Below are positions 5,820 to 63,251 of a stretch of DNA of 64,000 nt, one piece after another. The notes beneath the pieces are model-generated. The model saw only the letters and a list, made by a program, of their open reading frames with translations, did no database searches and was not told the origin of the DNA. Every line of letters begins with the position of its first letter. The first letter of the stretch is position 1. The translations under genes and the position numbers were made by a program. Source of the DNA: Acholeplasma equirhinis (GTDB lineage: Bacteria; Bacillota_I; Bacilli_A; Acholeplasmatales; Acholeplasmataceae); contig NZ_JAFIDC010000001.1 in the NCBI RefSeq assembly GCF_017052655.1, positions 1,240,001 to 1,304,000 on the forward strand, in the 5' to 3' direction.

Positions 5820-6740
5820 TTAATCGAGGTAATATACATGGATTGTAAATGAACCATCTTCATCGAAAATTGTTTCTTTATAAATCGTAATGTAGACATC
5901 ATCTGAAAGTAAAATATCATAGTCAGATGGGATAAATCCATCCGGGTCTAAGTTATAGCTTTCTCCATTTACAGATGTCACAGAGCTGTAAGCTCTTGTT
6001 ACCAAATCAGTACAATAAAACTTATATTCCGTATCAAATATAAATAAATAATTATATAAACCACGATCAACTTTGTCTTCAACATAACCTACTGCTTGAT
6101 CAATATCATCTTGAATGGTATTTACATCATTAAATTTTGGTCTAACAGCAAAAATTTCAGGACGATAATATTTACCATAGTATGGGTATTCTGCATGATT
6201 TTCATTTCGATATGGTCGCATCCAATAATTATATGTTTTTTGAGCAGAGACCCCATATATATTTTCCTCATCATATCCTCTATGCGTGATGACATTAAAC
6301 ATTGTTTCTAAATTAAGAAGTCCGTTTGATGTCATACCTGTTGATTGTAAAATTGTATTATTCTTACCAACTAATGCAGCGTGTCCACCCAACCAGAAAG
6401 ATAGCATTTGATGCACAACAGGTACATATGGGAATGGTGATTCAAATGCTAAAAGAATATCCCCTTCAAGTCCTGGGTTCATTCTTTCCTCATCATAGAA
6501 CACATCTCTTGTGTCTTGAAGTTCATAATCATGTACTCTTTGTACCTTATGATAAACATATTTATCACCGTTTGAATGCATGATAGTTTCTTCTTCATAA
6601 GCACGTGATTTGAACTCTTCTAATTTTTCATTCTTCTTATGATTTTCATAGGTCGATACACCAATTGAATACATAAAGAAAAAGAGTGCTATATATAAAA
6701 TTAACTTGAGTATTTTTCTACCAATTTTTCTTTTTTTCAT
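5820..6740 (-). CDS. Membrane-anchored permuted papain-fold amidase (YiiX/NlpC-P60-like)
   Basis: 306 aa. An N-terminal basic stretch and single membrane segment (residues 12-29) suggest an anchored extracellular domain. The body resembles permuted NlpC/P60-type papain-fold proteins such as YiiX: GDILLAFES around 93-101, then a histidine in WLGGHAALVG (His120) and, far downstream, a cysteine in KFYCTDLVTRAYSS (Cys243), the expected permuted His...Cys order. Members hydrolyse amide or thioester bonds; the substrate here is unknown, and classical peptidoglycan is unlikely in a wall-less cell. The family call is from motif order only. Its promoter sits directly on the start codon. Confidence 0.6.
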   Translation of the reverse strand: MKKRKIGRKILKLILYIALFFFMYSIGVSTYENHKKNEKLEEFKSRAYEEETIMHSNGDKYVYHKVQRVHDYELQDTRDVFYDEERMNPGLEGDILLAFESPFPYVPVVHQMLSFWLGGHAALVGKNNTILQSTGMTSNGLLNLETMFNVITHRGYDEENIYGVSAQKTYNYWMRPYRNENHAEYPYYGKYYRPEIFAVRPKFNDVNTIQDDIDQAVGYVEDKVDRGLYNYLFIFDTEYKFYCTDLVTRAYSSVTSVNGESYNLDPDGFIPSDYDILLSDDVYITIYKETIFDEDGSFTIHVYYLD

Positions 6741-6746
6741 ACTGAT

Positions 6747-6752
6747 ATTATA
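6747..6752 (-). promoter_or_regulatory. Extended -10 element immediately before the amidase ATG (leaderless?)
   Basis: TGCTATAAT reads toward the gene on the minus strand, with TATAAT at 6752-6747. The expected start of transcription, 6-8 bases on, coincides with the ATG at 6740, and no Shine-Dalgarno sequence is present between them. No convincing -35 was seen, which fits an extended -10 promoter. Confidence 0.45.
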
Positions 6753-6832
6753 GCATTTAAAGAATATTACATATCCTTTATACCTTTCTCGTTCTTGATA
6801 CTATTATACGATAATACCAAAAGAATTTATGA

Positions 6833-6866
6833 GAAAGAAAAAGTGGAACATTTTGTCCCACTTAAT
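6833..6866 (-). terminator. Terminator after jag
   Basis: Reading the minus strand, AAGTGGGACA pairs with TGTTCCACTT (6854-6863 with 6841-6850, one G-U) and is followed by TTTCTTTC. It would end the rpmH-rnpA-yidC-jag transcript. Confidence 0.6.
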
Positions 6867-6870
6867 TTTT

Positions 6871-7491
6871 TTATTTTCTTTTTGGTTTGATGATGATTGC
6901 ACGTTCGTCGCCTTCACCTTCTGATTCGGTTTCAACATCACGCCATTCAGCTAATTTAGCATGAATGATGCGACGATCAAAAGCATTCATTGGGTCAAGT
7001 TTAACTGCAATTCTTGTTCTTGCAACATCTTTAGCAGTTTTAGTTGCTAAAATTTCAAGTTGTTTTTTACGATTCTCATGATAATTTCCAATATCTAATG
7101 TAACTAAAATTGGATCTTTTGAGAATGATGCTAAATGATTTCTTAATAAAGTTTGTAGGGCAAGTAATGTTCTACCATCTTTACCAATTAATAGTGCATT
7201 TTCTGATGTTTGTAGTCGGTAATAGATTTCATTTGGATTATGTGATCTAAATTCCATCTTGCAATCAATACCAAGTGCAGAAACAATACCCTCTAAATAG
7301 ATTTTACCTTCGGTAGTTAAGTCAATTTTAGGGGTTGCTTTAAATGTAGTTGTTGCACCAACACCGAGAAATCCCTTTTTCTCTTTGACAATTTCAAGTT
7401 CGATTTTGTCTTCTGCGATCTTTAACAATTCAGACGCTTTTTTAAGTGCTTCTTGTTGAGTCTTAGCTTCAATTTCAACTTGTTTTAACAT
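6871..7491 (-). CDS. jag: RNA-binding protein Jag (KhpB/EloR)
   Basis: 206-aa SpoIIIJ-associated protein. It has the N-terminal Jag-N domain (VEIEAKTQQEALKKASELL, then KKGFLGVGA), a KH domain with the GKDGRTLLALQTLLR loop near residues 108-122, and a C-terminal R3H domain (DRRIIHAKLAEWRDVETESEGEGDER, R and H of the R3H signature visible). In Firmicutes it binds RNA with KhpA and affects envelope growth. It follows yidC by 16 bases with an AGGGGG ribosome site, the standard gene order near oriC. Confidence 0.92.
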   Translation of the reverse strand: MLKQVEIEAKTQQEALKKASELLKIAEDKIELEIVKEKKGFLGVGATTTFKATPKIDLTTEGKIYLEGIVSALGIDCKMEFRSHNPNEIYYRLQTSENALLIGKDGRTLLALQTLLRNHLASFSKDPILVTLDIGNYHENRKKQLEILATKTAKDVARTRIAVKLDPMNAFDRRIIHAKLAEWRDVETESEGEGDERAIIIKPKRK

Positions 7492-7507
7492 AGTTTTTAC
7501 CCCCTAT

Positions 7508-8980
7508 TTAAACGATTGAATGTTGATTCTTTAACTTGTTGTGTTTTCTTTCAGATAACTTACGGTTAATTAATGATTGACCGATTGAGTAAATGTTACC
7601 TACAACCCAGTAGAATCCTAACGCGTTAATTGATGAGAATGTTGTAATTGTCATCATAGCAATCATAACCATTGATACGGTTTTCATTGTTTTTTCAGTT
7701 TGCATTTGTTGTTCATTTTTAACTTGTGTACCAGTGTTTTTAGCATAAGATGGTTTTTTAGCTGAAATCTTTTGTAATAACCACATTGTTAAACCAACAA
7801 TTGCAGCAAGTACATAACTCCATACATCTGTTACACCACCTACTGATGCTAAATCTAATGTACCAAAGAATAATTTACTGTTTGAAATTGCTCCTGTATA
7901 CATACCACCTGGTTGAGTGATTCTATAAACAACTTGGAACATTGCAAGGAAGATTGGCATTTGGAAGAATGGTGTGAAGCAACCTAAGATTGAAATACCA
8001 TACTTCTTATAGATAGCCATCATTTCGATTTGCATCTTTTGTTGGCTTGCTGGATCTTTCTTTAATGCATATTTGTTTTGAAGTTTATTCATTTCAGGTT
8101 GTGCAAGTGCCATTTTCATTGACATATCGTTTGCTCTAGCATAAATTGGCCATGCAATTGTACGTACGATAATGGTTGCAAAGAAGATGCCAACAGCATA
8201 GCTATTAAAGAATAGTCCTGCAAAGAATTGCATAATAAATGAGATAGGAATAATTAAAATCCAGTCCCAAATATAACCTAGGAATGTATTTTCCATCTCA
8301 GTTGAGATTGGTAATTGATTATCAATTGGTTTAACTGTATTGTTTCTTACAACAATTGTTGTTTCTTTAGCATCATCAAATTTAATTGTAAATACATTTA
8401 ATGATGACATTTTCTTAATATTTTGTTCATAGCCTTCAGGTTGAGCAGCTTCAAAATATGATACTGCATCTTCAACTACAACATCTTCTGAACTTTCGGC
8501 ATCGAAATTAGCTGATAAAACAGAAATTCCATTTAAATCAATCTTATTCATGATAGTTGTCCAATATAATTTTGTTACATTAGCTAACTTTTCTGAATCT
8601 GAATCGATACCATATGTTGCTGATACTGCTCTAACTGCGACTGCGCTTGGATCAATTGCAGCTGCATCATACATATATACATTATAAGTAGCAGTGAAAT
8701 TTTGGTGTGTAATTGTTACTTTGAAAATATTATCTTCTAAATCTGTGATCACTGAAGTAAATTCAGTTGCTTCAATTTTTGTTGCTGTTTGATTGTCGTT
8801 AATAACGAATACTTCATAATCACTATTTGAAACAATAGGTTTACCATTTGCTGATTCAGTTGTTGTATAAACAATTTTATTTGGTGAAACAAATAAGTCA
8901 GTTTTGTTTACAGATTGCTGACAAGCAACTAGAATAAACCCAAGTGCTAACACTGTAAGTAGTGCTAAAAATTTACGCAT
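7508..8980 (-). CDS. yidC: Membrane protein insertase YidC with long extracytoplasmic N-domain
   Basis: Inserts proteins into the membrane with or without SecYEG. The first 20 residues are a lipoprotein signal ending in the lipobox-like VAC (Cys20). Residues about 21-228 form a soluble outside domain, then the conserved five-helix core begins at FLGYIWDWILIIPISF, with the hydrophilic-groove arginine in IIVRTIAWP and the CFTPFFQMPIFLAMF and GFYWVVGNIYSIGQ segments. Gram-positive YidC proteins are usually 250-300 aa; this one is 490 because of the N-domain. The ATG overlaps the end of rnpA by 8 bases, so expression is coupled. Confidence 0.93.
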   Translation of the reverse strand: MRKFLALLTVLALGFILVACQQSVNKTDLFVSPNKIVYTTTESANGKPIVSNSDYEVFVINDNQTATKIEATEFTSVITDLEDNIFKVTITHQNFTATYNVYMYDAAAIDPSAVAVRAVSATYGIDSDSEKLANVTKLYWTTIMNKIDLNGISVLSANFDAESSEDVVVEDAVSYFEAAQPEGYEQNIKKMSSLNVFTIKFDDAKETTIVVRNNTVKPIDNQLPISTEMENTFLGYIWDWILIIPISFIMQFFAGLFFNSYAVGIFFATIIVRTIAWPIYARANDMSMKMALAQPEMNKLQNKYALKKDPASQQKMQIEMMAIYKKYGISILGCFTPFFQMPIFLAMFQVVYRITQPGGMYTGAISNSKLFFGTLDLASVGGVTDVWSYVLAAIVGLTMWLLQKISAKKPSYAKNTGTQVKNEQQMQTEKTMKTVSMVMIAMMTITTFSSINALGFYWVVGNIYSIGQSLINRKLSERKHNKLKNQHSIV

Positions 8981-9329
8981 TTGTTTGTTCCTCTTTCTCT
9001 ATAAATCTTGCTTTAATTAAAAGTTTTTTGATGTTTTCTAAAATATCATTATATTTTAGTGTGTTGACGCTTGGTTTGACAACGATGACAAAAGATACAT
9101 CTTGTTTTAATTCATCTTTGAATTTAGATAGGATGTATCTTAAGCGACGTTTTGCCAAATTACGCTCCACGGCACTCCCGTATTTTTTACCAATAGAGAT
9201 CGAATATTTAAAATGTATATCTTCGTGTTTTTGATAGTAGATTGCAAAATAGCTATTACCTACAGAAGTTTTAGCTTTAAAAATGCTATCTATTACATCT
9301 TTACTTTTTAATGAGTAAACTCTTTTCAC
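8973..9329 (-). CDS. rnpA: Ribonuclease P protein component
   Basis: 118-aa basic protein that assists the RNase P RNA in maturing tRNA 5' ends. The family signature is clear: SLKSKDVIDSIFK at the N-terminus and the RNR-like motif GSAVERNLAKRRLRY near residues 50-64. It sits between rpmH and yidC as in most bacteria. An AAGGTGATC ribosome site precedes the ATG. The large hairpin at 9364-9413 lies in the rpmH-rnpA gap and may reduce read-through or direct processing. Confidence 0.95.
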   Translation of the reverse strand: MKRVYSLKSKDVIDSIFKAKTSVGNSYFAIYYQKHEDIHFKYSISIGKKYGSAVERNLAKRRLRYILSKFKDELKQDVSFVIVVKPSVNTLKYNDILENIKKLLIKARFIEKEEQTNA

Positions 9330-9363
9330 AAGATCACCTTATAAATATATAAATAAAAAATAA

Positions 9364-9413
9364 AGGACTGCCTAAAACAAATCATACGAATTTGTCAATT
9401 ATCGGGTAGTCCT
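9364..9413. terminator. Large hairpin between rpmH and rnpA, terminator-like on both strands
   Basis: AGGACTGCC (9364-9372) pairs with GGGTAGTCCT (9404-9413, one G-U), enclosing a second stem ACAAAT/ATTTGT. On the minus strand it is followed by TTTATTTTTTATTT. It would partly terminate, or mark a processing site, between rpmH and rnpA. Confidence 0.55.
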
Positions 9414-9453
9414 GGTATTTTTAATTGATTGATTAACTTAATTTGGTAGAAAA

Positions 9454-9588
9454 TTAAACAGTTAGTACGTGGCGGCCTTTAGCTCTTCTTCTTGCTAGTA
9501 CTTTGCGACCATTAGCTGTTGCCATGCGTGCTCTGAATCCGTGTACACGTTGGTGTTTAATTTTGCTTGGTTGATATGTTCTTTTCAT
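9454..9588 (-). CDS. rpmH: Large ribosomal subunit protein bL34
   Basis: 44 codons, the normal length: [19 protein letters not shown] through the [12 protein letters not shown] tail. It is a strongly basic component of the 50S subunit. It is the first gene to the left of oriC, as in most bacteria, with a GGCGG ribosome site and a consensus promoter at 9628-9656. Confidence 0.97.
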
Positions 9589-9627
9589 TTACGAACACCG
9601 CCTTTCATATGAAACCTTGCCTTACTT

Positions 9628-9656
9628 ATTATAAATAAAGTAATGCTAATTGTCAA
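9628..9656 (-). promoter_or_regulatory. Consensus promoter of the rpmH operon
   Basis: TTGACA (9656-9651) and TATAAT (9633-9628) on the minus strand with an exact 17-base spacer, the only perfect consensus pair noticed. It drives rpmH and the genes behind it away from the origin. Confidence 0.85.
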
Positions 9657-9953
9657 ACACATTTTGTAAAATAATTTTTCCCACTTTTATATCCACAATA
9701 ATTCACATCTTTTATCCACAAAAATGTGGGAAGATTACCCACAAGTTATCAACATTGTGGATATGTGGATTAAACATATATTTTTGCTTAATAAGGCTGA
9801 TAAGTGGTCTAAAGTTTTCCACATTCTCATGTTATGAAAGTGATTTTCTGTAAATTTTATCCACAAATATTGTGGAAAACTTTTTAGTATTTTTTGATTT
9901 TCGTATGCTATGATATTAGTAACTTAAATTACTAACTGAAAGAGGAGACAAAA
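9657..9953 (+). other. Replication origin oriC, rpmH-dnaA intergenic region
   Basis: The gap between the divergent rpmH and dnaA genes holds at least eight sequences equal or close to the DnaA box TTATCCACA: exact copies at 9712-9720 and 9857-9865, and variants at 9689-9697, 9735-9743, 9746-9754, 9756-9764 (reverse), 9764-9772 (reverse), 9815-9823 and 9871-9879 (reverse). The last 70 bases before dnaA are very AT-rich, suitable for unwinding. Genes to the left all read left and genes to the right read right, as expected at a bidirectional origin. The dnaA promoter is probably the TATGAT at 9909-9914; box density suggests autorepression. Confidence 0.9.
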
Positions 9954-11312
9954 ATGAGTCCTTACGACAACTTATGGCAAACAATTCTAAAGGATTTAGA
10001 AAGACTTTATAGTGAAGAAACTTACACAGAGTTATTTTCACCGATAACAAGTACATATAAATACCAAAATGGATTGATTACAATGGTTGTTGCTAATGAA
10101 TTCCTAAAAAACCGTATCAATAAGTTATATATTGGTAAAATCAATGAGTTAGCTTCTGTATACTCAGAACATCCGGTTAGATTCAAATTCATTACTTCTG
10201 ATGAGGTAAAACCAGAGGATTCAGCTCCAGAGCGTAAAATTTCAATCGATTATCGTCAAGAGAACTTAAATTCTACTTACACCTTTGACTCCTTTGTTGT
10301 TGGTAAATCTAATATGTTTGCATTCCGCATGGCAATGAAGGTTGCAGATCAGCCTGGTGCTGTTGCAAATCCATTTTACATCTTTGGTGATGTTGGACTA
10401 GGTAAAACACACCTTATGCAAGCAATTGGTAACTATATATTAGATAATGATGTTGAAAAACGTATTTTGTATGTAAAAGCTGATAATTTTATTGAAGATT
10501 TTGTATCCTTACTATCTAGAAATAACAAAACTGATGAATTTAATAATAAATATAGAGATATTGATGTCTTATTGGTCGATGATATTCAAATTATGGCTAA
10601 CGCTTCAAAGACTCAAATGGAATTTTTCAAGCTATTTGATTATCTATATTTAAATAATAAACAAATTGTTATTACATCTGATAAACCTGCTAGTCAATTA
10701 ACAAATATTATGCCACGTTTAACCACTCGATTTGAAGCAGGATTATCTGTTGATATTGAAGTTCCTGATTTAGAACACAGAATTAGTATTTTAAAACGTA
10801 AATTGTTAACTTTTGAAAGTTCTCAAGTTGTTCCTGATGAAATTCTATCCTTTATTGCATCACAATTCACTGCAAATATCCGTGAGATGGAAGGTGCATT
10901 AATTCGTTTAATTAACTATGCTCAAACCTTTAATTTAGATATCACAATGGATGTTGTAGATGATGCATTAAGTAGCATCTTAAAGACCCGTAGAAAGACT
11001 GATCAATTAAATGAAAATAATTACGATAAGATTCAAAGTGTTGTTGCAGATTATTTCAATATAAGTCTACAAGACTTAATAGGCAAAAAACGACATGCAA
11101 AATATGCACTTCCAAGACATATCGCAATGTACTTAATTAAACTAAAATATAACTTAGCTTATAAGACAATTGGATCCTTATTTAGTGACCGTGATCACTC
11201 AACTGTACTAGCTGCATGTGAGAAGGTTGAAAAGGATATGAAACTTGATAAAAATTTAAAATTCGCAATTGATTCAATTCTTAAAAAATTAGACTCTTCA
11301 TCCACAAAGTAA
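9954..11312 (+). CDS. dnaA: Chromosomal replication initiator protein DnaA
   Basis: 452-aa initiator that binds DnaA boxes and opens oriC. The N-terminal domain I is at about residues 1-85; the AAA+ core begins near NSTYTFDSFVVGKSN, with Walker A GDVGLGKTHLMQAIGN, Walker B VLLVDDIQ and sensor RLTTRFEAGLSVDIE. Domain IV carries the helix-turn-helix signature DRDHSTVLAACEKVEKD that reads the box. Length is typical. The ATG has AGAGGAG upstream. Boxes on both sides suggest autoregulation. Confidence 0.98.
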   Translation: MSPYDNLWQTILKDLERLYSEETYTELFSPITSTYKYQNGLITMVVANEFLKNRINKLYIGKINELASVYSEHPVRFKFITSDEVKPEDSAPERKISIDYRQENLNSTYTFDSFVVGKSNMFAFRMAMKVADQPGAVANPFYIFGDVGLGKTHLMQAIGNYILDNDVEKRILYVKADNFIEDFVSLLSRNNKTDEFNNKYRDIDVLLVDDIQIMANASKTQMEFFKLFDYLYLNNKQIVITSDKPASQLTNIMPRLTTRFEAGLSVDIEVPDLEHRISILKRKLLTFESSQVVPDEILSFIASQFTANIREMEGALIRLINYAQTFNLDITMDVVDDALSSILKTRRKTDQLNENNYDKIQSVVADYFNISLQDLIGKKRHAKYALPRHIAMYLIKLKYNLAYKTIGSLFSDRDHSTVLAACEKVEKDMKLDKNLKFAIDSILKKLDSSSTK

Positions 11313-54233: not shown

Positions 54234-55538
54234 ATGATTGCGAAAACAAGAATAATCCCAGATGGGAAAAAGGTTTTAAAAAAGCTTCCTCTCGTTCACT
54301 ATCTTGAAGCACCTTATCTTTACTATCCAATGACAAACCAACGTTGCCCTGAAGGGGAAACATGTGTTGTCTTTGGTCAGTTCGTTAAGGTCGGTGAAGT
54401 TATTGGTACTAGAAAAGGTGCATTTTTCGAACAACCAATACATGCAACCGTATCGGGTGAAGTTGTAGGTTATGAAATGAAATATGATGCCTCTGGCCAA
54501 AAGGTCAACTGTATGATCGTTAAAAACGATTATAAATATGAGGTTCATGAATCAGTAAAAACTAGAACAGATGAGGAAATCTTAAACTTTACCAAAGCGG
54601 ATTATGTTGAGATTGCAAAAAATGCTGGTCTAGTAGGTCTTGGAGGATCTGGTTTCCCAACCTACATTAAATTAAACACTAAAGCAGAAATTAACATCGT
54701 TTTAGCAAACGGTGTTGAATGTGAACCAAAGTTAATTTCTGACTATGAACTCATGATGAATTATCCGGATGAATTAATCAATGGGTTAATTTATGCAATG
54801 CGTGCGTTAAATGCAAAAACTGGTATCATTGCGGTTAAGAAGAAATATATGGAGTTAGTTGAAAGAATTAACTTCGCATTGAATGCTTATCCTGAGTATG
54901 ATATTCAAGTAGTACCTGTTGGTAATTACTACCCACAAGGTTGGGAATTAGAAGCGATTAAATCTGCAACAGGTATTGTTGTACCTCAAGGTAAATTACC
55001 TGCAGATTACGGTGTTGTACCATTTAACGTATCAACATTACAATCATTATTCCATGCAGTTAAATATGGTCTACCTGTCCTAGAAAGATACTTTGTTATC
55101 TCAGGTGATGGTGCTGTTAATAAATCATTTAAGATTAGAATCGGTACACCAATTCATAACTTACTTGAAAAAGCTGGTGGATATGTTGATACACATATTC
55201 CAAAAACTTTAATTATGGGCGGACCAATGATGGGAACAAACCTTCCATCGGATGATATTATTTCAACGCACACTGCAACATCATTGATTGTTCAAAACAC
55301 AGTCTATAGTGATGAAGACCCATGTATTCACTGTGCATCATGTGTCTACTCATGTCCAGTTCAAATTCAACCAGTTCAAATTATGAACGCGGTTAAAGCA
55401 AAAGATAAAGATTTCTTAAAAACTTTATCTGTTAATAAATGTATTGAATGCGGTCTATGTTCATTCGTATGTCCATCTAAGATTCACTTAACAGATTACA
55501 TGCGTCAAGGCAAACGTATTCTTAGACAAGGGGAATAG
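54234..55538 (+). CDS. rnfC: Rnf-like electron transport complex subunit C
   Basis: 434-aa peripheral subunit on the cytoplasmic side. An N-terminal barrel-sandwich domain (RCPEGETCVVFGQFVKVGEVIG) precedes the NADH/FMN-binding Rossmann region with GLVGLGGSGFPTYIKL (about residues 138-153) and NGVECEPKLISDYELM. Two [4Fe-4S] motifs near the C-terminus, CIHCASCVYSCP and CIECGLCSFVCP, mark RnfC and not NqrA. In Rnf complexes it exchanges electrons with NAD(H). First gene of the redox operon, AAGGAGTG ribosome site. Confidence 0.95.
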   Translation: MIAKTRIIPDGKKVLKKLPLVHYLEAPYLYYPMTNQRCPEGETCVVFGQFVKVGEVIGTRKGAFFEQPIHATVSGEVVGYEMKYDASGQKVNCMIVKNDYKYEVHESVKTRTDEEILNFTKADYVEIAKNAGLVGLGGSGFPTYIKLNTKAEINIVLANGVECEPKLISDYELMMNYPDELINGLIYAMRALNAKTGIIAVKKKYMELVERINFALNAYPEYDIQVVPVGNYYPQGWELEAIKSATGIVVPQGKLPADYGVVPFNVSTLQSLFHAVKYGLPVLERYFVISGDGAVNKSFKIRIGTPIHNLLEKAGGYVDTHIPKTLIMGGPMMGTNLPSDDIISTHTATSLIVQNTVYSDEDPCIHCASCVYSCPVQIQPVQIMNAVKAKDKDFLKTLSVNKCIECGLCSFVCPSKIHLTDYMRQGKRILRQGE

Positions 55539-55540
55539 TT

Positions 55541-56617
55541 ATGTACCAACAAAATATGACTTTTTCTAAACAAACATCTCCATATATTCGTAAAGCAACC
55601 TCAACAAAAAGAATGATGTTTGATGTGCTAATTGCGTTAACCCCTGTAACATTCTTTTCAATTTACAGATTCGGTCTTGATGCATTAACAAGAATCTTAC
55701 TTTCATTAATTGTCTTTGTATTAGTTGAAATGATCTATTTCTTAGCAGTTACAAAGGTAGAAGGTTTTGATTTTAAAGACAAATTAGTTAACAAATTTAA
55801 AAAATATTCAATTAATAACTTTGCAGCACCAGCGGTATCTGGTTTAATTTATGCAATGTTATTACCAGACCAAATTGATTTCTATGTTGTGATCATTGGT
55901 GCTTTATTTGGAGCATTCGTTGGTAAGATGATTTTTGGTGGTTTAGGATTTAACCTATTCAACCCAGCAGCACTTGGCAGAATCTTTATTGCGATTACCT
56001 TTACAGGATTTTTCACAGGTAGTTATGGTTTAGTGGATGCTGCAGCTGGTGCAACACCACTTTCAACATCATTCCCACAAGTTTTCAATTCATATAGTTT
56101 ACTTGATTTATTCAGTGGTAATATTCCAGGTTCATTAGGAGAAGTAAACAGTTTAGCAATTTTAATTGGGGCACTATATTTATTTATTAGAAAGAGTGCT
56201 GACTTCCGTCCTGCACTTTCTGCCCTCTTAATCTTTACAGCATTAAGTTTTGTTGCTGGACTCGTGTTATATCCACAATATTTAGCACAATATGTTTTAT
56301 ATCAAGTGTTATCTGGTGGTTTATTATTCGGTTTAGCATTTATGATTACAGACCCAGCAACATCACCAATTACAAGACCTGGTCGTTGGATCTTTGGATT
56401 AATCATCGGTACAGTTGTCTTTTCAATTAGACAATTCGGTAATTTACCAGAAGGTGTAGCATTTGCGATTCTTCTTGGCAATATGTTAGTTCCAGTACTT
56501 GATTATCCAGTATGGGCAAAAAACCCAATCAAATTAAAATTTATTTTAGGTTATAGTGTTGCATTCATTGCAATCTTAATCGTATCCTTCTTAGTATTAG
56601 GAGGTTATGCTATATGA
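55541..56617 (+). CDS. rnfD: Rnf-like complex subunit D (membrane flavoprotein)
   Basis: 358 aa with about nine or ten membrane helices. Signatures: GGLGFNLFNPAALGRIFI, DAAAGATPLSTSF (166-178; Thr172 is the probable site of covalent FMN, where D-x-x-S/T-G-A-T is usual and the fourth position is Ala here), ITDPATSPITRPGRW and GNLPEGVAFAILLGNMLVP. It carries electrons across the membrane together with a riboflavin in characterised complexes. Starts 2 bases after rnfC; overlaps the next gene by 4. Confidence 0.95.
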   Translation: MYQQNMTFSKQTSPYIRKATSTKRMMFDVLIALTPVTFFSIYRFGLDALTRILLSLIVFVLVEMIYFLAVTKVEGFDFKDKLVNKFKKYSINNFAAPAVSGLIYAMLLPDQIDFYVVIIGALFGAFVGKMIFGGLGFNLFNPAALGRIFIAITFTGFFTGSYGLVDAAAGATPLSTSFPQVFNSYSLLDLFSGNIPGSLGEVNSLAILIGALYLFIRKSADFRPALSALLIFTALSFVAGLVLYPQYLAQYVLYQVLSGGLLFGLAFMITDPATSPITRPGRWIFGLIIGTVVFSIRQFGNLPEGVAFAILLGNMLVPVLDYPVWAKNPIKLKFILGYSVAFIAILIVSFLVLGGYAI

Positions 56618-57558
56618 AATTAAAAAGTATATTAGCACTTGCAATTACCTTCTTAGTCAGTCTTTCATTATTAATTGGAAGTTATGCGATATTTAATCCA
56701 ATTAAACTTGCTAAAGAAAAAGAAAAAGCATTAGCTGAAATTAAAATTATGATGAGTGATGCAACAGATTTCACATCAAATCCATTAGAAACAATAGATG
56801 TTGTTGAAATCTTACTTTCAGCTAAAGTTTATAAAGGTAGTGAAGGTTTAGGTTATGTTTACGAGGCAAATGCAAAAAATGGTTTTGGTAATATCAAAAT
56901 TATGATTGCAGTTGGTTTAGATGAGAAGATCAGTGATTTAAAAATAATTGAACTTAACCAAACTATGTATCAAGATAAAACAACTAAATTATTACAAGAT
57001 TATAAATATCAAAAATTATCACCAACAATCACCGATCAAGCAACTGGTGCAACTTCAGTCTCAATGAACACTTTAATGGATATGTTTCGAGCACTTGGTT
57101 CACACCATGCTAAAGTTGAAAAATTCCCATTTGTAATGCCTTATGAAGCGTTTTACGGTGAATATACAATTGCATCAACAACAACATCTAATGTTTCAGG
57201 AGCAGCCGTTAAAGTAGAAGTTATTAATGGTACTACAAAGAGTGGTAAAGTAATTAGCTTAACTAAAGCTGGTGTATATCAAACAGGTTCATTAACTGAA
57301 AAAGAAATTATGGTTCAAGTTGCTTTAGATGAATCAGGCAAGATTTTAGGTGTGTTATTACCAAACGAGTCATACAAACATTCACTGGGTAATTTCTATG
57401 CTAAAGCATTAGTTTATGCACAAAGCTTTAAAGATATGATGATTAATGAAGTTCCAGATGCTTACACAGGTTCAACAAATGATGAAGGCGAACCAAATAA
57501 CTCTAAGATGTTAATCCATGAGTTAATGTTAATTGCTGGGGAGGTCTTCTTAGGATGA
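56614..57558 (+). CDS. rnfG: Rnf-like complex subunit G, FMN-binding protein (first of two)
   Basis: 314 aa; one N-terminal membrane helix (6-27), the rest outside. The first FMN-binding domain (about 60-170) contains the complete ApbE flavinylation motif DQATGAT at 141-147, Thr147 being the expected acceptor. A second half (about 195-314) looks like a degenerate copy of the domain with TGSTND in place of the motif. Normal RnfG is about 200 aa, so this protein is longer by one domain. Overlaps the following paralogue by 4 bases. Confidence 0.88.
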   Translation: MKLKSILALAITFLVSLSLLIGSYAIFNPIKLAKEKEKALAEIKIMMSDATDFTSNPLETIDVVEILLSAKVYKGSEGLGYVYEANAKNGFGNIKIMIAVGLDEKISDLKIIELNQTMYQDKTTKLLQDYKYQKLSPTITDQATGATSVSMNTLMDMFRALGSHHAKVEKFPFVMPYEAFYGEYTIASTTTSNVSGAAVKVEVINGTTKSGKVISLTKAGVYQTGSLTEKEIMVQVALDESGKILGVLLPNESYKHSLGNFYAKALVYAQSFKDMMINEVPDAYTGSTNDEGEPNNSKMLIHELMLIAGEVFLG

Positions 57559-58469
57559 AACGTGAAAATATATTATTAGTCATCGCATTTGTTGCAATGA
57601 TCATCGGTTCAATTATTATGATTGCAATCCAAACAGCATTACCGACAAGTGATGTTGATAAAATGTTTGGACAAAAAGTTGAAATCGTGAATGAAAAACC
57701 AGTGATTGATGCTAGCATTCTTTCACAAGCAGAAGTTATGGATATGTTTGGTAATAAATTAGCAGACATTTATGTTGCAAGAACAAACAATTCATACTTT
57801 TACTTAGAGTTATATGTTGCAATTGATGCAAATGGTAAAGTCTATGCGATTGATAAAAAAGTTGAAACTTATGACTCAACATCAGCAAGTTATTTCCCGC
57901 TAGTAAGAAATTACTTACTTCAAAATTATAATGGATTATTCTTTGAAAATATCCAATTCATTGATGGTGCTGCAGGTGGTACAACAATTGAAGTATCACG
58001 TTCAAGCATTAAAAACGTTATAAAACATGTCATTACATTCCACCAAGGTGAACCAGTAGAATACATCAAAGATTTATTTGGTGGTGAATATGGTTTAATT
58101 GGTGAGCAAACAATTTCAGGTATAAAAGTGTCAACTGTTACATTTGGTGGTTCAATTTATAAAGTTTATGAACATAAATTAACAGGTACATATTTTGACC
58201 GTTCAGCAACACATGAAGAATCAGTTACAGTATTCTTAGCAGTTGATGAAAATAACATTATTCGATTTGCAAGTTTACCTGATGAATTATACAAACATAC
58301 ACACGGTAGATTCATTACTGCAAGTAAGGAATTCTTAGCGTCCTTTATTGGTAAAAATATTCTTGTAGATCAATTACCAGAATCAACAACTGGTCCAACG
58401 GATAACTCTAACGGTACACAATATTTAATTAGAGAAATCGTTGATGCAATTAAGGGGGTTATCTCATGA
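57555..58469 (+). CDS. Second RnfG-like FMN-binding-domain protein
   Basis: 304 aa, clearly laid out like its upstream neighbour: N-terminal membrane helix (6-28), a first FMN-binding-like domain with DGAAGGT at 137-143 (normal D-x-x-S/T-G-A-T; Ser/Thr and Ala are both replaced but the acceptor Thr143 remains), and a second domain ending in STTGPTDNSNGT. Canonical rnf operons have only one such gene. It may be an additional outside electron carrier, a terminal reductase, or a structural replacement for the missing RnfB. No signal-peptide cleavage site seen. Confidence 0.7.
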   Translation: MKRENILLVIAFVAMIIGSIIMIAIQTALPTSDVDKMFGQKVEIVNEKPVIDASILSQAEVMDMFGNKLADIYVARTNNSYFYLELYVAIDANGKVYAIDKKVETYDSTSASYFPLVRNYLLQNYNGLFFENIQFIDGAAGGTTIEVSRSSIKNVIKHVITFHQGEPVEYIKDLFGGEYGLIGEQTISGIKVSTVTFGGSIYKVYEHKLTGTYFDRSATHEESVTVFLAVDENNIIRFASLPDELYKHTHGRFITASKEFLASFIGKNILVDQLPESTTGPTDNSNGTQYLIREIVDAIKGVIS

Positions 58470-59020
58470 ATTTAAATTTAATCAGAAGAATAAGCCTTTT
58501 AAGTATTGTGCCTTTAATTTATATTGCAAAATCACTTGAAAAAGCATTACTTGCAGGTATCGTATTATTTGTTTCAAGTATGTTAGTAAAACTTGCATCA
58601 CTTGCACTTGATAAATTTGTAGAAGGTAGATTCAATCTTTATGCAAAACTTATCTTAATTGCAGCAATCATTGCAGCGTTATCTATCATACTTTCTACAT
58701 ACTTTAATTTAGATCAAATCTTTAGTATGTATCTTGCACTGATTTTATTTAATGTTGATATGATGCATAAAGATGATAATAAAATGTCTTTATTAGGCCA
58801 TTTATATACAGCTATTTCAAGTTTCTTATTACTTGTTGTTATTGGATTTTTAAGAGAAACGTTAGGAACTGGTGCACTTATTATTGGAGAAACTTCAATT
58901 GTTTTATTTGATAGTAAATATGCTTTAAGTTTCTTAACAAGTGCTGCAGGTGGATTTATTCTTGCTGGTTTCTTATATGGATTCTTAAATATGATTCCAT
59001 TAGAAAAGGAGGCAAAGTAA
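58466..59020 (+). CDS. rnfE: RnfE-like membrane subunit without cluster cysteines
   Basis: 184-aa, six-helix protein of the RnfA/RnfE-NqrD/NqrE family. The family segment VIGFLRETLGTGALIIGE (about residues 124-141) matches the REILGxG region. In characterised Rnf and Nqr complexes, cysteines in LGLCPLL and TNCAVLG ligate a membrane [2Fe-2S] cluster with the partner subunit; here those positions read LSIVPLI and LFNVDMM, and the protein has no cysteine. Overlaps the previous gene by 4 bases. Confidence 0.82.
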   Translation: MNLNLIRRISLLSIVPLIYIAKSLEKALLAGIVLFVSSMLVKLASLALDKFVEGRFNLYAKLILIAAIIAALSIILSTYFNLDQIFSMYLALILFNVDMMHKDDNKMSLLGHLYTAISSFLLLVVIGFLRETLGTGALIIGETSIVLFDSKYALSFLTSAAGGFILAGFLYGFLNMIPLEKEAK

Positions 59021-59021
59021 T

Positions 59022-59579
59022 ATGATCTTCGCACTTTTATCTAGCGTGCTTGCTGCAGCGATCCTTTCTAATATCCTAACTCAAGGTATTGGTTTAGAAA
59101 ATTTAACCAAAGATGAATTTAGAGTGAAACCAGTTTTAAAGACAACATCAGTTGTTTCAATAGCCTCTCTTTTAGTCTTCTTAATTGATTACTTAATCTA
59201 CAATGTGGTATTATTACCACTTGGAGCAACGTATTTAAATATTTTCGTTCTAGTCATCTTAATGATAATCTTGAATGAGTTATATCAAATCTTAGTTTCA
59301 AAACTTAAATTTGAATTACCAAAAGGTGAGACAATCATCCTAAATTCAGTTGTTATTCTTGTTGGACTTTTAGGATTAAATTCAGTATCATTTGAACTTG
59401 CATTTTTAGAAACTGTAGGTTCACTACTTGGATTTATGGCACTAACAATTTTATTAACAATGAATATTTCAAGAATGAGAGTTGCACCAATGATTAAATC
59501 ATTTAAAGGATTACCAATTGTGTTGATCGTACTTGGTTTAATTATCTTAGTACTTACAGGACTTGGTGGTATCTTCTAA
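59022..59579 (+). CDS. rnfA: RnfA-like membrane subunit without cluster cysteines
   Basis: 185-aa partner of the preceding subunit, with six membrane helices. The C-terminal ISRMRVAPMIKSFKGLPIVL and the following hydrophobic LVLTGLGGIF end are those of RnfA. The normal TNCAVLG segment is replaced by ILNSVVILVG and the first helix (SNILTQGIGL) also lacks its cysteine; there is none in the whole protein. GGAGG ribosome site in the end of rnfE. Last of the rnf genes: the rnfB expected after it is absent. Confidence 0.8.
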   Translation: MIFALLSSVLAAAILSNILTQGIGLENLTKDEFRVKPVLKTTSVVSIASLLVFLIDYLIYNVVLLPLGATYLNIFVLVILMIILNELYQILVSKLKFELPKGETIILNSVVILVGLLGLNSVSFELAFLETVGSLLGFMALTILLTMNISRMRVAPMIKSFKGLPIVLIVLGLIILVLTGLGGIF

Positions 59580-59592
59580 TCATAGGAGTCTT

Positions 59593-60675
59593 ATGAAAAA
59601 AACCTGGCTTATAATTTTATCTATTTTAATCACTCTCGTGCTTACTGCATGTTTAGAATCAACACCACAACATAATGATCCTTCAAAGGAACGTGTGTTC
59701 TTTGGTGTTGGTGCGATGTCAACAACAATTTCTGTAACGATGTATGTAGAGCCAGAGAGAAAAGAAGAAATCATGGAGAATGTTGAAGAAATTCTATATT
59801 TTTATCACGATTTAACAGATAACTTTAAATTAAAGTCTGGTGTAAATAATATCACTTATATTAACAATCAAGCAGCAGCATCTGACGGTGAAGCGACCGT
59901 TGAAATTGAAAAAGAACTTTATAATATTTTAGAACTTGGCTTACAAGTACAAGAAGAAACCAATGGCTATTTTGATATTGCTATGGGTGAAATTATTGAT
60001 ATTTGGAAAGAAGTTATAAAGAATAATCAAAAAACAGGTAAAGTGTCAGAAGCAGAACTTCAAGAAACATATGAAGCAGTTGATGCGATTATCTTGCCTG
60101 AAAATCCAGTCTTACTTAATGAAGAAGCTGGAAAATACTATGTCACCCTTAAAAAAGGTGCTAAATTAGATTTGGGAGCGATAGCAAAAGGCTATGCTGT
60201 ACAAAAAGTGGTTGAATATATAGAATCAGAAGGTATTACACAATACATTATTAATGGTGGATCATCTTCAATCGATTTTGGTAAAGACAACCCTAGAACA
60301 CAAGATGGTAACTATGTATTTGAATTGTTAAACCCATTAATGCCTTATCAAGGTTATGGTTTTGCATATTACAGTGGTCAAAACCAAAACATTACAACAT
60401 CAGGCAGTTATCTTCAATATGTGGAAGATCTAGAAGGCAATTGGTATCACCACATTATTTCACCAAAAACAAGAAGACCGTCAAATAACTTTTACACTAT
60501 TACTCTAATTGGTGTTGATGGTGGTTTACTTGATGCATATTCTACTGCGTTATTTTGTATGAGCCCTGAAGAAATTGAAAATTTCGTTGAAGGTAAAGAC
60601 ATTCAAGTTGCAACATTTAATTTAGATGGTACCGTCACACCATACTTTATGTCGTCAGGATACGAACCAAAATAA
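59593..60675 (+). CDS. apbE: FAD:protein FMN transferase ApbE (lipoprotein)
   Basis: 360 aa from the ATG at 59593, which has AGGAG upstream. A lipoprotein signal ends in LTACLES (Cys18), placing it on the outer face of the membrane. ApbE attaches FMN to threonine in RnfG and RnfD. Motifs: TTISVTMYV, DIAMGEIIDIWKE, LDLGAIAKGYAVQKV and INGGSSSIDFG, plus the metal-binding end DGGLLDAYSTALFCMSPEE. Its place right behind rnfA fits covalent flavinylation of the complex. Confidence 0.95.
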   Translation: MKKTWLIILSILITLVLTACLESTPQHNDPSKERVFFGVGAMSTTISVTMYVEPERKEEIMENVEEILYFYHDLTDNFKLKSGVNNITYINNQAAASDGEATVEIEKELYNILELGLQVQEETNGYFDIAMGEIIDIWKEVIKNNQKTGKVSEAELQETYEAVDAIILPENPVLLNEEAGKYYVTLKKGAKLDLGAIAKGYAVQKVVEYIESEGITQYIINGGSSSIDFGKDNPRTQDGNYVFELLNPLMPYQGYGFAYYSGQNQNITTSGSYLQYVEDLEGNWYHHIISPKTRRPSNNFYTITLIGVDGGLLDAYSTALFCMSPEEIENFVEGKDIQVATFNLDGTVTPYFMSSGYEPK

Positions 60676-60676
60676 T

Positions 60677-61141
60677 ATGAAAAAACAAGACTTTATCATA
60701 ATTGGAGGTTTATTAATTATCTTTAGCATCATCTTTGTTTGGGTGACATTTTTCACCACGCAAGATGGCAATATTGGTAAAGTATATCAAGGCTCTCAAG
60801 TTGTGATAGAGGTTGATTTTAAAACAAAACAAGTTAAAACATTCCCTCAAAAAGAACACCCAGAATATCCTAAAACAACAACACCTGTTGAAGGTGAAGG
60901 TGGCGACTTAGCCTATGTCGTTTTAGGTGCATATGAAATTGATGGCAATCGGACTGAAGTATTTATAGAAATTGATTGGGATACATCAAGTATTCGAATT
61001 GAACGTGATGAAACACCTAAACAAATTGGTGTTGGTCGCAGTTGGTACAACGGGAAAGGATTACCTGTCATATCGCTTCCTAATGCAGTTTATATTAAAT
61101 TTGAAAAAGAAGTTGATACAGGGTTGGATGGTGCTGTATGA
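60677..61141 (+). CDS. NusG domain II-like membrane-anchored protein
   Basis: 154 aa from ATG 60677. A membrane helix at residues 7-26 is followed by an outside beta domain: GKVYQGSQVVIEVDFKTK, EIDWDTSSIRIERDETPKQIGVGRSW, then GKGLPVISLPNAVYIKFE, matching the NusG_II family. Usual members have cysteines in the segment CPDKxCV...IVCLPN; here all are missing. Such proteins accompany ApbE and Gx proteins in Firmicutes; function unknown. Starts right behind apbE without a clear ribosome site; overlaps the next gene by 4 bases. Confidence 0.7.
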   Translation: MKKQDFIIIGGLLIIFSIIFVWVTFFTTQDGNIGKVYQGSQVVIEVDFKTKQVKTFPQKEHPEYPKTTTPVEGEGGDLAYVVLGAYEIDGNRTEVFIEIDWDTSSIRIERDETPKQIGVGRSWYNGKGLPVISLPNAVYIKFEKEVDTGLDGAV

Positions 61142-61647
61142 AAAATACCAGAATGATTACAACATTATCTATGTTAACTGCCGTTGCTATCGTTTTAAAT
61201 GTTATAGAAATGCAAATTAATATTATTCCAGTACCTGGTGCTAAGATCGGCTTTGCTAATATCGTGACTGTTATCGTGCTTTACATGTATCGATTTAGAG
61301 AAGCAACACTTGTCACTTTACTGAGAGTATTAATTGTTGCACTTTTATATCGCTCATTCACATTAACATTTTGGATGGGTTTAGGTGGATCGATTCTTTC
61401 GATTCTTACGATGGGAATCTTAAAACAATGGTTCAAACTACACACTGTAACAGTATCTGTTTTAGGTGCAATTACCCATACTATTGGACAAATTCTTGTC
61501 GGTATGTATTTAGTAGAAACAGAACTTTTGATTCTATATTTACCAATCATGCTATTAATTAGTGTGCCAGCTGGAATTTTAACTGGCATCATTGCGGATC
61601 GATTCTTAAAGAATTTCTCTCATGTAGCTAAGGTAAAATCGTACTAA
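61138..61647 (+). CDS. Gx-type membrane transporter family protein (heptaprenyl-diphosphate-synthase component I-like)
   Basis: 169 aa with about five membrane helices. MITTLSMLTAVAIVLNVIEMQ, VPGAKIGFANIVTVIVLYMYRFREA and GLGGSILSILTM are family marks of Gx transporter (Hpre_diP_synt_I) proteins, which resemble ECF-type vitamin carriers. With ApbE and NusG_II it forms a set often found near Rnf genes; it might supply flavin or quinone precursor, by inference. Ends the redox operon. Confidence 0.75.
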   Translation: MKNTRMITTLSMLTAVAIVLNVIEMQINIIPVPGAKIGFANIVTVIVLYMYRFREATLVTLLRVLIVALLYRSFTLTFWMGLGGSILSILTMGILKQWFKLHTVTVSVLGAITHTIGQILVGMYLVETELLILYLPIMLLISVPAGILTGIIADRFLKNFSHVAKVKSY

Positions 61648-63137: not shown

Positions 63138-63251
63138 ACATCTCTATAGGGTATTCTCATTCAACATTAAGGAACGAACCTGGTCAGGCCTTGAGTGGAG
63201 CAGCCATAAGTCACCTGATGTGTGGGTGAGGATACCCTATGGAGATGTTTT
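63138..63251 (+). ncRNA. ffs: Signal recognition particle RNA (small 4.5S type)
   Basis: About 114 bases. The ends pair over 18 bp (AACATCTCTATAGGGTAT with ATACCCTATGGAGATGTT, one G-U), and the tip holds the Ffh-binding symmetric and asymmetric loops: CCTGGTCAGG ... AGCAGCCATAAG. The apical segment is CC-TTGAGT-GG (63189-63198), where most bacteria have a GGAA tetraloop. No Alu domain. T run at the 3' end. Confidence 0.93.

Follow-up and report, generated by a model that had tools for sequence, protein, structure and literature searches.

The Rnf complexes of Acetobacterium woodii and Clostridium tetanomorphum (RnfABCDGE) are described relatives of the operon reported here, which lies in a 64,000-nucleotide window (the whole stretch of DNA analyzed; positions 1,240,001 to 1,304,000 of contig NZ_JAFIDC010000001.1, assembly GCF_017052655.1) of Acholeplasma equirhinis. 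In the A. woodii enzyme electrons pass from RnfB (cluster B8) through AE1, the intramembrane cluster ligated by RnfA and RnfE, to the flavin mononucleotide (FMN) of RnfG, the FMN of RnfD, riboflavin (RBF) and RnfC, Na+ is drawn in by the negative charge that AE1 acquires on reduction, and mutants without AE1 show no ferredoxin-linked NAD+ reduction (PMC11889175). The Acholeplasma locus has homologous C, D, G, E, and A genes in a single operon and shares with Rnf the clusters and FMN site of RnfC, the flavin residues of RnfD and the flavinylation motifs, but it is without RnfB and without the AE1 cysteines, and it has two two-domain G proteins. Judged from its sequence, the first two steps of the known path (RnfB and AE1), and with them the entry of ferredoxin electrons by that path, would be impossible here, and the residues for the later steps appear to be intact. 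We propose, with slightly better than even confidence, that the operon encodes a descendant of Rnf whose ferredoxin arm is gone and which serves as an uncoupled relay from NADH to flavins outside the membrane, with RnfA and RnfE as a scaffold.

Other members of the family provide partial parallels. The Na+-NQR has the same membrane core and its origin by loss of rnfB has been proposed (PMC4014512), but it gained NqrF as a new electron donor, kept AE1 and lost the RnfC cofactors, of which the Acholeplasma complex is the mirror image; there is no NqrF-like open reading frame (ORF) within 54.2-61.6 kb of the window, NqrF being encoded in a separate operon. For the two-subunit 'Nqr/Rnf-like' complexes, a one-way path from NAD(P)H through an RnfD-like subunit and an RnfG-like flavin to an outside acceptor, with no ferredoxin arm, has been proposed (Meheust 2021 eLife; PMC10979944). 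In these the NAD-binding domain (PF00175) is fused to the D-like subunit, from which the flavinylation site has been lost, whereas in Acholeplasma RnfD is free of that domain, RnfC is separate, and both the RnfD site and a cluster-free RnfA/E pair have been kept. The extracellular electron transfer (EET) system of Listeria (Ndh2-EetA/B-PplA-FmnB) is similar in that the operon includes ApbE, an EetB-family protein and extracytosolic FMN proteins, but Ndh2, EetA, and PplA are not among the genes of the operon, to which that search was confined. Acholeplasma is given in the literature simply as having 'the Rnf complex', and our literature search found no paper describing an RnfB-less Rnf.

Missing RnfB and AE1 Ligands

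The operon has the order rnfC-D-G1-G2-E-A-apbE-nusGII-eetB (Table 1). The original prediction, made from the letters of the window, had listed C, D, G, G', E, and A without RnfB, and both its coordinates and its gene order prove correct. The rnfB gene is absent from the operon and from the whole genome (1.45 Mb, 99.75% complete), in which the rnfB model TIGR01944 has a single match, below its cut-off, to the ferredoxin domain of RnfC; a copy hidden elsewhere is ruled out by this genome-wide model search. RnfE and RnfA contain no cysteine at all, as had also been claimed, and all four AE1 ligand positions are substituted. When aligned to cysteine-bearing relatives these positions are occupied by Glu and Ser in RnfA (IGL[E], LN[S]; C25 to Glu and C113 to Ser in A. 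woodii numbering) and by two Val residues in RnfE (LSI[V]P, FN[V]), and the register in RnfA is the same in a profile alignment with solved RnfA chains. Around the conserved Glu lies a charged stretch, GLENLTKDEFRVK; RnfA proteins with the cysteines have a hydrophobic segment of the GLCSFFGVST type there, and the cluster-bearing half-helix of RnfA may therefore have been reshaped.

The loss of RnfB together with the cluster, which the original prediction regarded as a correlated change, is indeed correlated and is conserved in relatives. A search of 160 genomes of the order gave an RnfA match in 101, of which 13 are without the ligand cysteines (Cys-less), two match via Nqr-type operons only and 86 are others. 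The Cys-less genomes comprise eight of Acholeplasma (including A. laidlawii, A. oculi, A. granularum, and A. equifetale), and five from two sister genera (two from g2, three from g5), and in all 13 the operon is without rnfB and without any of the four AE1 ligands; some relatives (e.g., A. equifetale) do have cysteines in RnfA or RnfE, none of them at a ligand position. Sequencing error or chance as the cause is ruled out by the agreement of seven other Acholeplasma and five sister-genus genomes. The first RnfA ligand position is Glu in all eight Acholeplasma and Glu or Asp in g2, and g5 has a deletion there; the second position holds Ser (Ala or Ser in g5), and both RnfE positions are mostly hydrophobic across the Cys-less genomes. 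The remaining RnfA loci checked in searches of the order and class keep GxC and usually TNC, with the exception of extra pairs linked to Nqr operons. Two independent losses (g5 versus g1 plus g2) are favored by the RnfC+D tree and by the differing replacement residues, and a single Cys-less clade is not rejected (approximately unbiased test, p = 0.115). Since the 13 genomes are related, their sequences point to one or two events rather than 13.

Loss of the Ferredoxin Side

Ferredoxin metabolism differs in step with these ligands. Pyruvate:ferredoxin oxidoreductase (PFOR) is found in none of the 13 Cys-less genomes and in 82 of the 86 order-mates with a cysteine-type RnfA, and an rnfB-like match at E <= 1e-9 is present in 0/13 and 86/86, respectively, in tallies that were counted by hand and in which some rnfB matches are other dicluster proteins. 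No [FeFe]-hydrogenase was found when looked for in Acholeplasma, and a search of the A. equirhinis genome with a single Pfam model, PF13237 (Fer4_10), gave no 2[4Fe-4S] ferredoxin, its only matches being RnfC and an epoxyqueuosine-reductase-like protein. Because rnfB, PFOR, [FeFe]-hydrogenase and such a ferredoxin were not found in these searches, and because pumping in the published model depends on AE1, the doubt that the original prediction cast on ferredoxin-driven ion pumping is supported.

The cysteine-type order-mates show what may be an intermediate state. Their RnfB is a remnant of 103-123 (~106) residues with four cysteines and without the polyferredoxin domain, made up of a membrane anchor and one cluster, and rnfA and apbE flank its gene, at the very place where 13 bp separate the two in Acholeplasma. 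The likely order of decay is from full RnfB through mini-RnfB to none.

Retention of the NADH and Flavin Parts

The NADH and flavin parts of the complex are retained. Alignment to solved RnfC shows all eight cluster ligands in place, as well as the sequence of the FMN/NADH site, and RnfD keeps the riboflavin-site Asn and Asp (aligned to solved RnfD/NqrB) and the flavinylation motif DAAAGAT (residues 166-172), including the FMN-bearing Thr, which is conserved in relatives. The motif recognized by ApbE is D-x-x-[ST]-G-A-[ST], in which the final T/S is the flavin acceptor (PMC12052999). By motif scan and alignment G1 has DQATGAT, which is strictly canonical, and DAYTGST, and G2 has DGAAGGT (off-consensus here, GAT in most relatives) and ESTTGPT; since the published motif ends in the acceptor T/S, these sites appear to be kept in both proteins. 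The assignment of G2, for which a Pfam search gave zero matches and a Foldseek search with the predicted structure no significant match, rests on BLASTP homology to G1 in relatives and on the predicted structure itself (a membrane anchor and two similar beta/alpha domains, pLDDT 75). The PF07456 protein is probably an energy-coupling factor (ECF) substrate subunit that exports FAD for ApbE, as PF07456 is the EetB family, for which FAD export for ApbE has been demonstrated in Listeria and of which rnf genes are frequent neighbors (PMC9973259).

The subunits differ in how strongly they are constrained. Mean identity within Acholeplasma is 84.5% for RnfC (range 81-91%) and 71.8% for RnfD, compared with 53.4% for RnfA, 41.5% for RnfE, 56.5% for G2 and 46.5% for G1 and ApbE, whereas the cysteine-type Rnf complexes of the order show about equal conservation of RnfA/E and RnfC/D, and the cysteine-bearing NqrD and NqrE of three Acholeplasma genomes are 78-91% identical. 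As RnfA/E are far less conserved than RnfC/D and NqrDE, most of their former constraint has been lost. They are not free of constraint, however, since dN/dS for both is about 0.1 in a close pair and 0.21-0.26 in a wider one, which indicates purifying selection.

A Separate Cysteine-Bearing Nqr System

The A. equirhinis genome does have a further Rnf-Nqr pair that bears both cysteine motifs, a possibility that the original prediction had considered together with an rnfB elsewhere in the genome; the pair belongs to an Nqr-like operon, and no rnfB accompanies it. Each of the eight Acholeplasma genomes has its cysteine-bearing NqrDE, and the cell thus appears to retain an AE1-type cluster in a separate complex with a different electron entry. 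NqrC has 675 residues and four FMN-binding domains, the flavinylation motif is missing from NqrB, and NqrA was not seen in or beside the operon. In other Acholeplasmataceae there are Nqr operons with an additional Cys-less D/E pair, which in L048, L073, and L074 is preceded by a fusion protein of 500-950 residues made up of an RnfD-like membrane domain and one to four flavinylation motifs. Extra Cys-less NqrE-like proteins (G037, G039, and G085) branch separately in the A+E tree and have Glu at the C25 position in the three checked.

Table 1. Positions of the rnf-derived operon and of related loci (L-numbered loci and contig C1 lie outside the numbering of the window).
Feature	Sequence	Position	Strand	Evidence or remark
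rnfC, NADH/FMN subunit	window	54234-55538	+	TIGR01945, E=1.4e-97, above cut-off; two [4Fe-4S] motifs, CIHCASCVYSCP and CIECGLCSFVCP
rnfD, membrane flavin subunit	window	55541-56617	+	PF03116, E=2e-82
G1, RnfG-like	window	56614-57558	+	Transmembrane anchor and two FMN_bind-like domains; PF04205 at cut-off
G2, second RnfG-like protein	window	57555-58469	+	Transmembrane anchor and two FMN_bind-like repeats
rnfE without AE1 cysteines	window	58466-59020	+	PF02508, above cut-off
rnfA without AE1 cysteines	window	59022-59579	+	Profile against solved RnfA, E=1.6e-20
Charged stretch of RnfA	window	59091-59129		Residues 24-36
rnfA-apbE junction	window	59580-59592	+	13 bp, rnfA stop to apbE ATG
apbE, FAD:protein FMN transferase	window	59593-60675	+	PF02424, E=1.6e-48; ATG at 59593
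NusG domain II protein	window	60626-61141	+	PF07009; range is the longest ORF, translation probably begins near 60677; operon membership conserved in relatives
EetB-like PF07456 protein	window	61138-61647	+	PF07456, E=7.8e-37
Bacterial small signal recognition particle (SRP) RNA	window	63148-63241	+	RF00169; sole Rfam match nearby
Nqr-like operon NqrB-C-D-E-F	C1 (L004)	188987-194289 (5988-11290)		V-ATPase genes adjoin
Cysteine-bearing Rnf-Nqr pair	C1	190091-191265		Both cysteine motifs
Mini-RnfB	L046	7487-8013		Preceded by Cys-rich ORF of ~69 residues
Mini-RnfB	L076	3522-3854
Mini-RnfB	L077	3108-3479
Mini-RnfB	L078	7242-7562
Mini-RnfB	L081	6874-7185
Nqr operon with Cys-less D/E pair	L048	2692-10608
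Nqr operon with Cys-less D/E pair	L073	2743-10265
Nqr operon with Cys-less D/E pair	L074	3065-9642
Nqr operon with Cys-less D/E pair	L072	20-5039		Begins at contig end

Discussion

A relay from NADH to outside flavins is probable because RnfB and the cluster have been lost while the NADH and flavin parts are conserved, and the path suggested in the original prediction, from NADH through RnfC and RnfD to the outside flavoproteins, gains support from the apparent retention of the cofactor residues that it needs. RnfC would oxidize NADH via FMN and its two [4Fe-4S] clusters and pass the electrons to the riboflavin and covalent FMN of RnfD. The next carriers would be the G1 and G2 flavins on the outer side of the membrane, followed by an extracytosolic acceptor. 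The latter may be O2 or another external oxidant, as neither a UbiA-type quinone prenyltransferase nor cytochrome bd was found in the A. equirhinis genome. RnfA/E would no longer be a redox-driven Na+ pump and would be kept as a structural partner of RnfD and the G proteins, ApbE and the EetB-like protein would provide for the supply and attachment of the flavins, and the separate, cysteine-bearing NqrBCDEF would be the ion-coupled route. We infer here the direction of the electrons, their acceptor, the absence of pumping and the scaffold role of RnfA/E. The complex is also a candidate for the membrane-bound NADH oxidase of acholeplasmas such as A. laidlawii, which has long been reported to be an FMN/iron-sulfur enzyme, although our literature search gave no support for this.

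Several observations weigh against this relay. Since the solved Rnf uses the FMN of RnfG as a shuttle linking AE1 with RnfD, G1 and G2 might be idle after the loss of AE1 rather than the outlet; they diverge fast (46-57% identity), and their off-consensus motifs (GGT, GPT, GST) may be flavinylated poorly. The 13 Cys-less genomes are not independent, reflecting one or two losses, and a mere scaffold role of RnfA/E would leave the conserved acidic residue at C25 without an explanation. That residue is the basis of an alternative that we consider unlikely, namely that ions are still moved without the cluster, the acidic residue acting as a fixed negative charge at the site that the reduced cluster would occupy and the flavin steps in RnfD and the G proteins driving or gating RnfA/E. 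It would fit the published model, in which the negative charge of reduced AE1 draws Na+ (PMC11889175), and it is consistent with the purifying selection on RnfA/E and with the acidic residue being invariant as Glu in the eight Acholeplasma, Glu or Asp in g2 and again Glu in the NqrE-like proteins of G037, G039, and G085; but g5 is equally Cys-less and has no acidic residue there, the charge-rich surroundings of the Glu may be a loop, no electron arrives at RnfA/E, and these evolve much faster than the pumping-type NqrDE. The AlphaFold model of RnfA is too poor to place the Glu (pLDDT 53) and was not used. It is distinctly unlikely that a buried RnfA carboxylate acts as a permanent 'reduced-state' charge that makes RnfA/E a controlled Na+ leak or a flavin-driven device.

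The presence of cysteine-bearing NqrDE in every Acholeplasma genome, together with an NqrB without a flavinylation motif and an operon in which no NqrA is seen, makes it conceivable that RnfC, RnfD, and the G proteins share NqrD/E and NqrF in a hybrid pump, to which the Cys-less RnfA/E would be accessory. We regard this as quite improbable, as RnfC/D/G have their own RnfA/E beside them in all genomes, under purifying selection, and NqrDE are encoded far away, together with an NqrB, C, and F of their own. The solved Rnf is reversible (PMC11889175) and electrons could also flow inward, with outside donors reducing the flavins and RnfD and RnfC producing NADH, but a fermenting cell without detected quinone synthesis must dispose of NADH and no donor system is seen, which makes this direction very improbable. 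It is extremely improbable that the operon is a decaying relic whose function was lost after ferredoxin metabolism vanished: RnfE, RnfA, G1, and ApbE do diverge fast, but the reading frames are intact in all complete loci, dN/dS is well below 1, RnfC is 81-91% identical, and the cofactor residues and operon order are kept in three genera.

The relay that we favor would be convergent in function with the two-subunit complexes, for which the same half-path has been proposed (PMC10979944), and we found no description in the literature searched of a route to it by subtraction from a full Rnf with a cluster-free RnfA/E retained. The operon resembles a natural deletion experiment on Rnf, in which evolution has removed RnfB and AE1 and kept the NADH-flavin half, so that it can be tested which part of Rnf and Nqr pumps ions. 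The ion-pumping assignments for Acholeplasma, which are wall-less model bacteria, should be revised.

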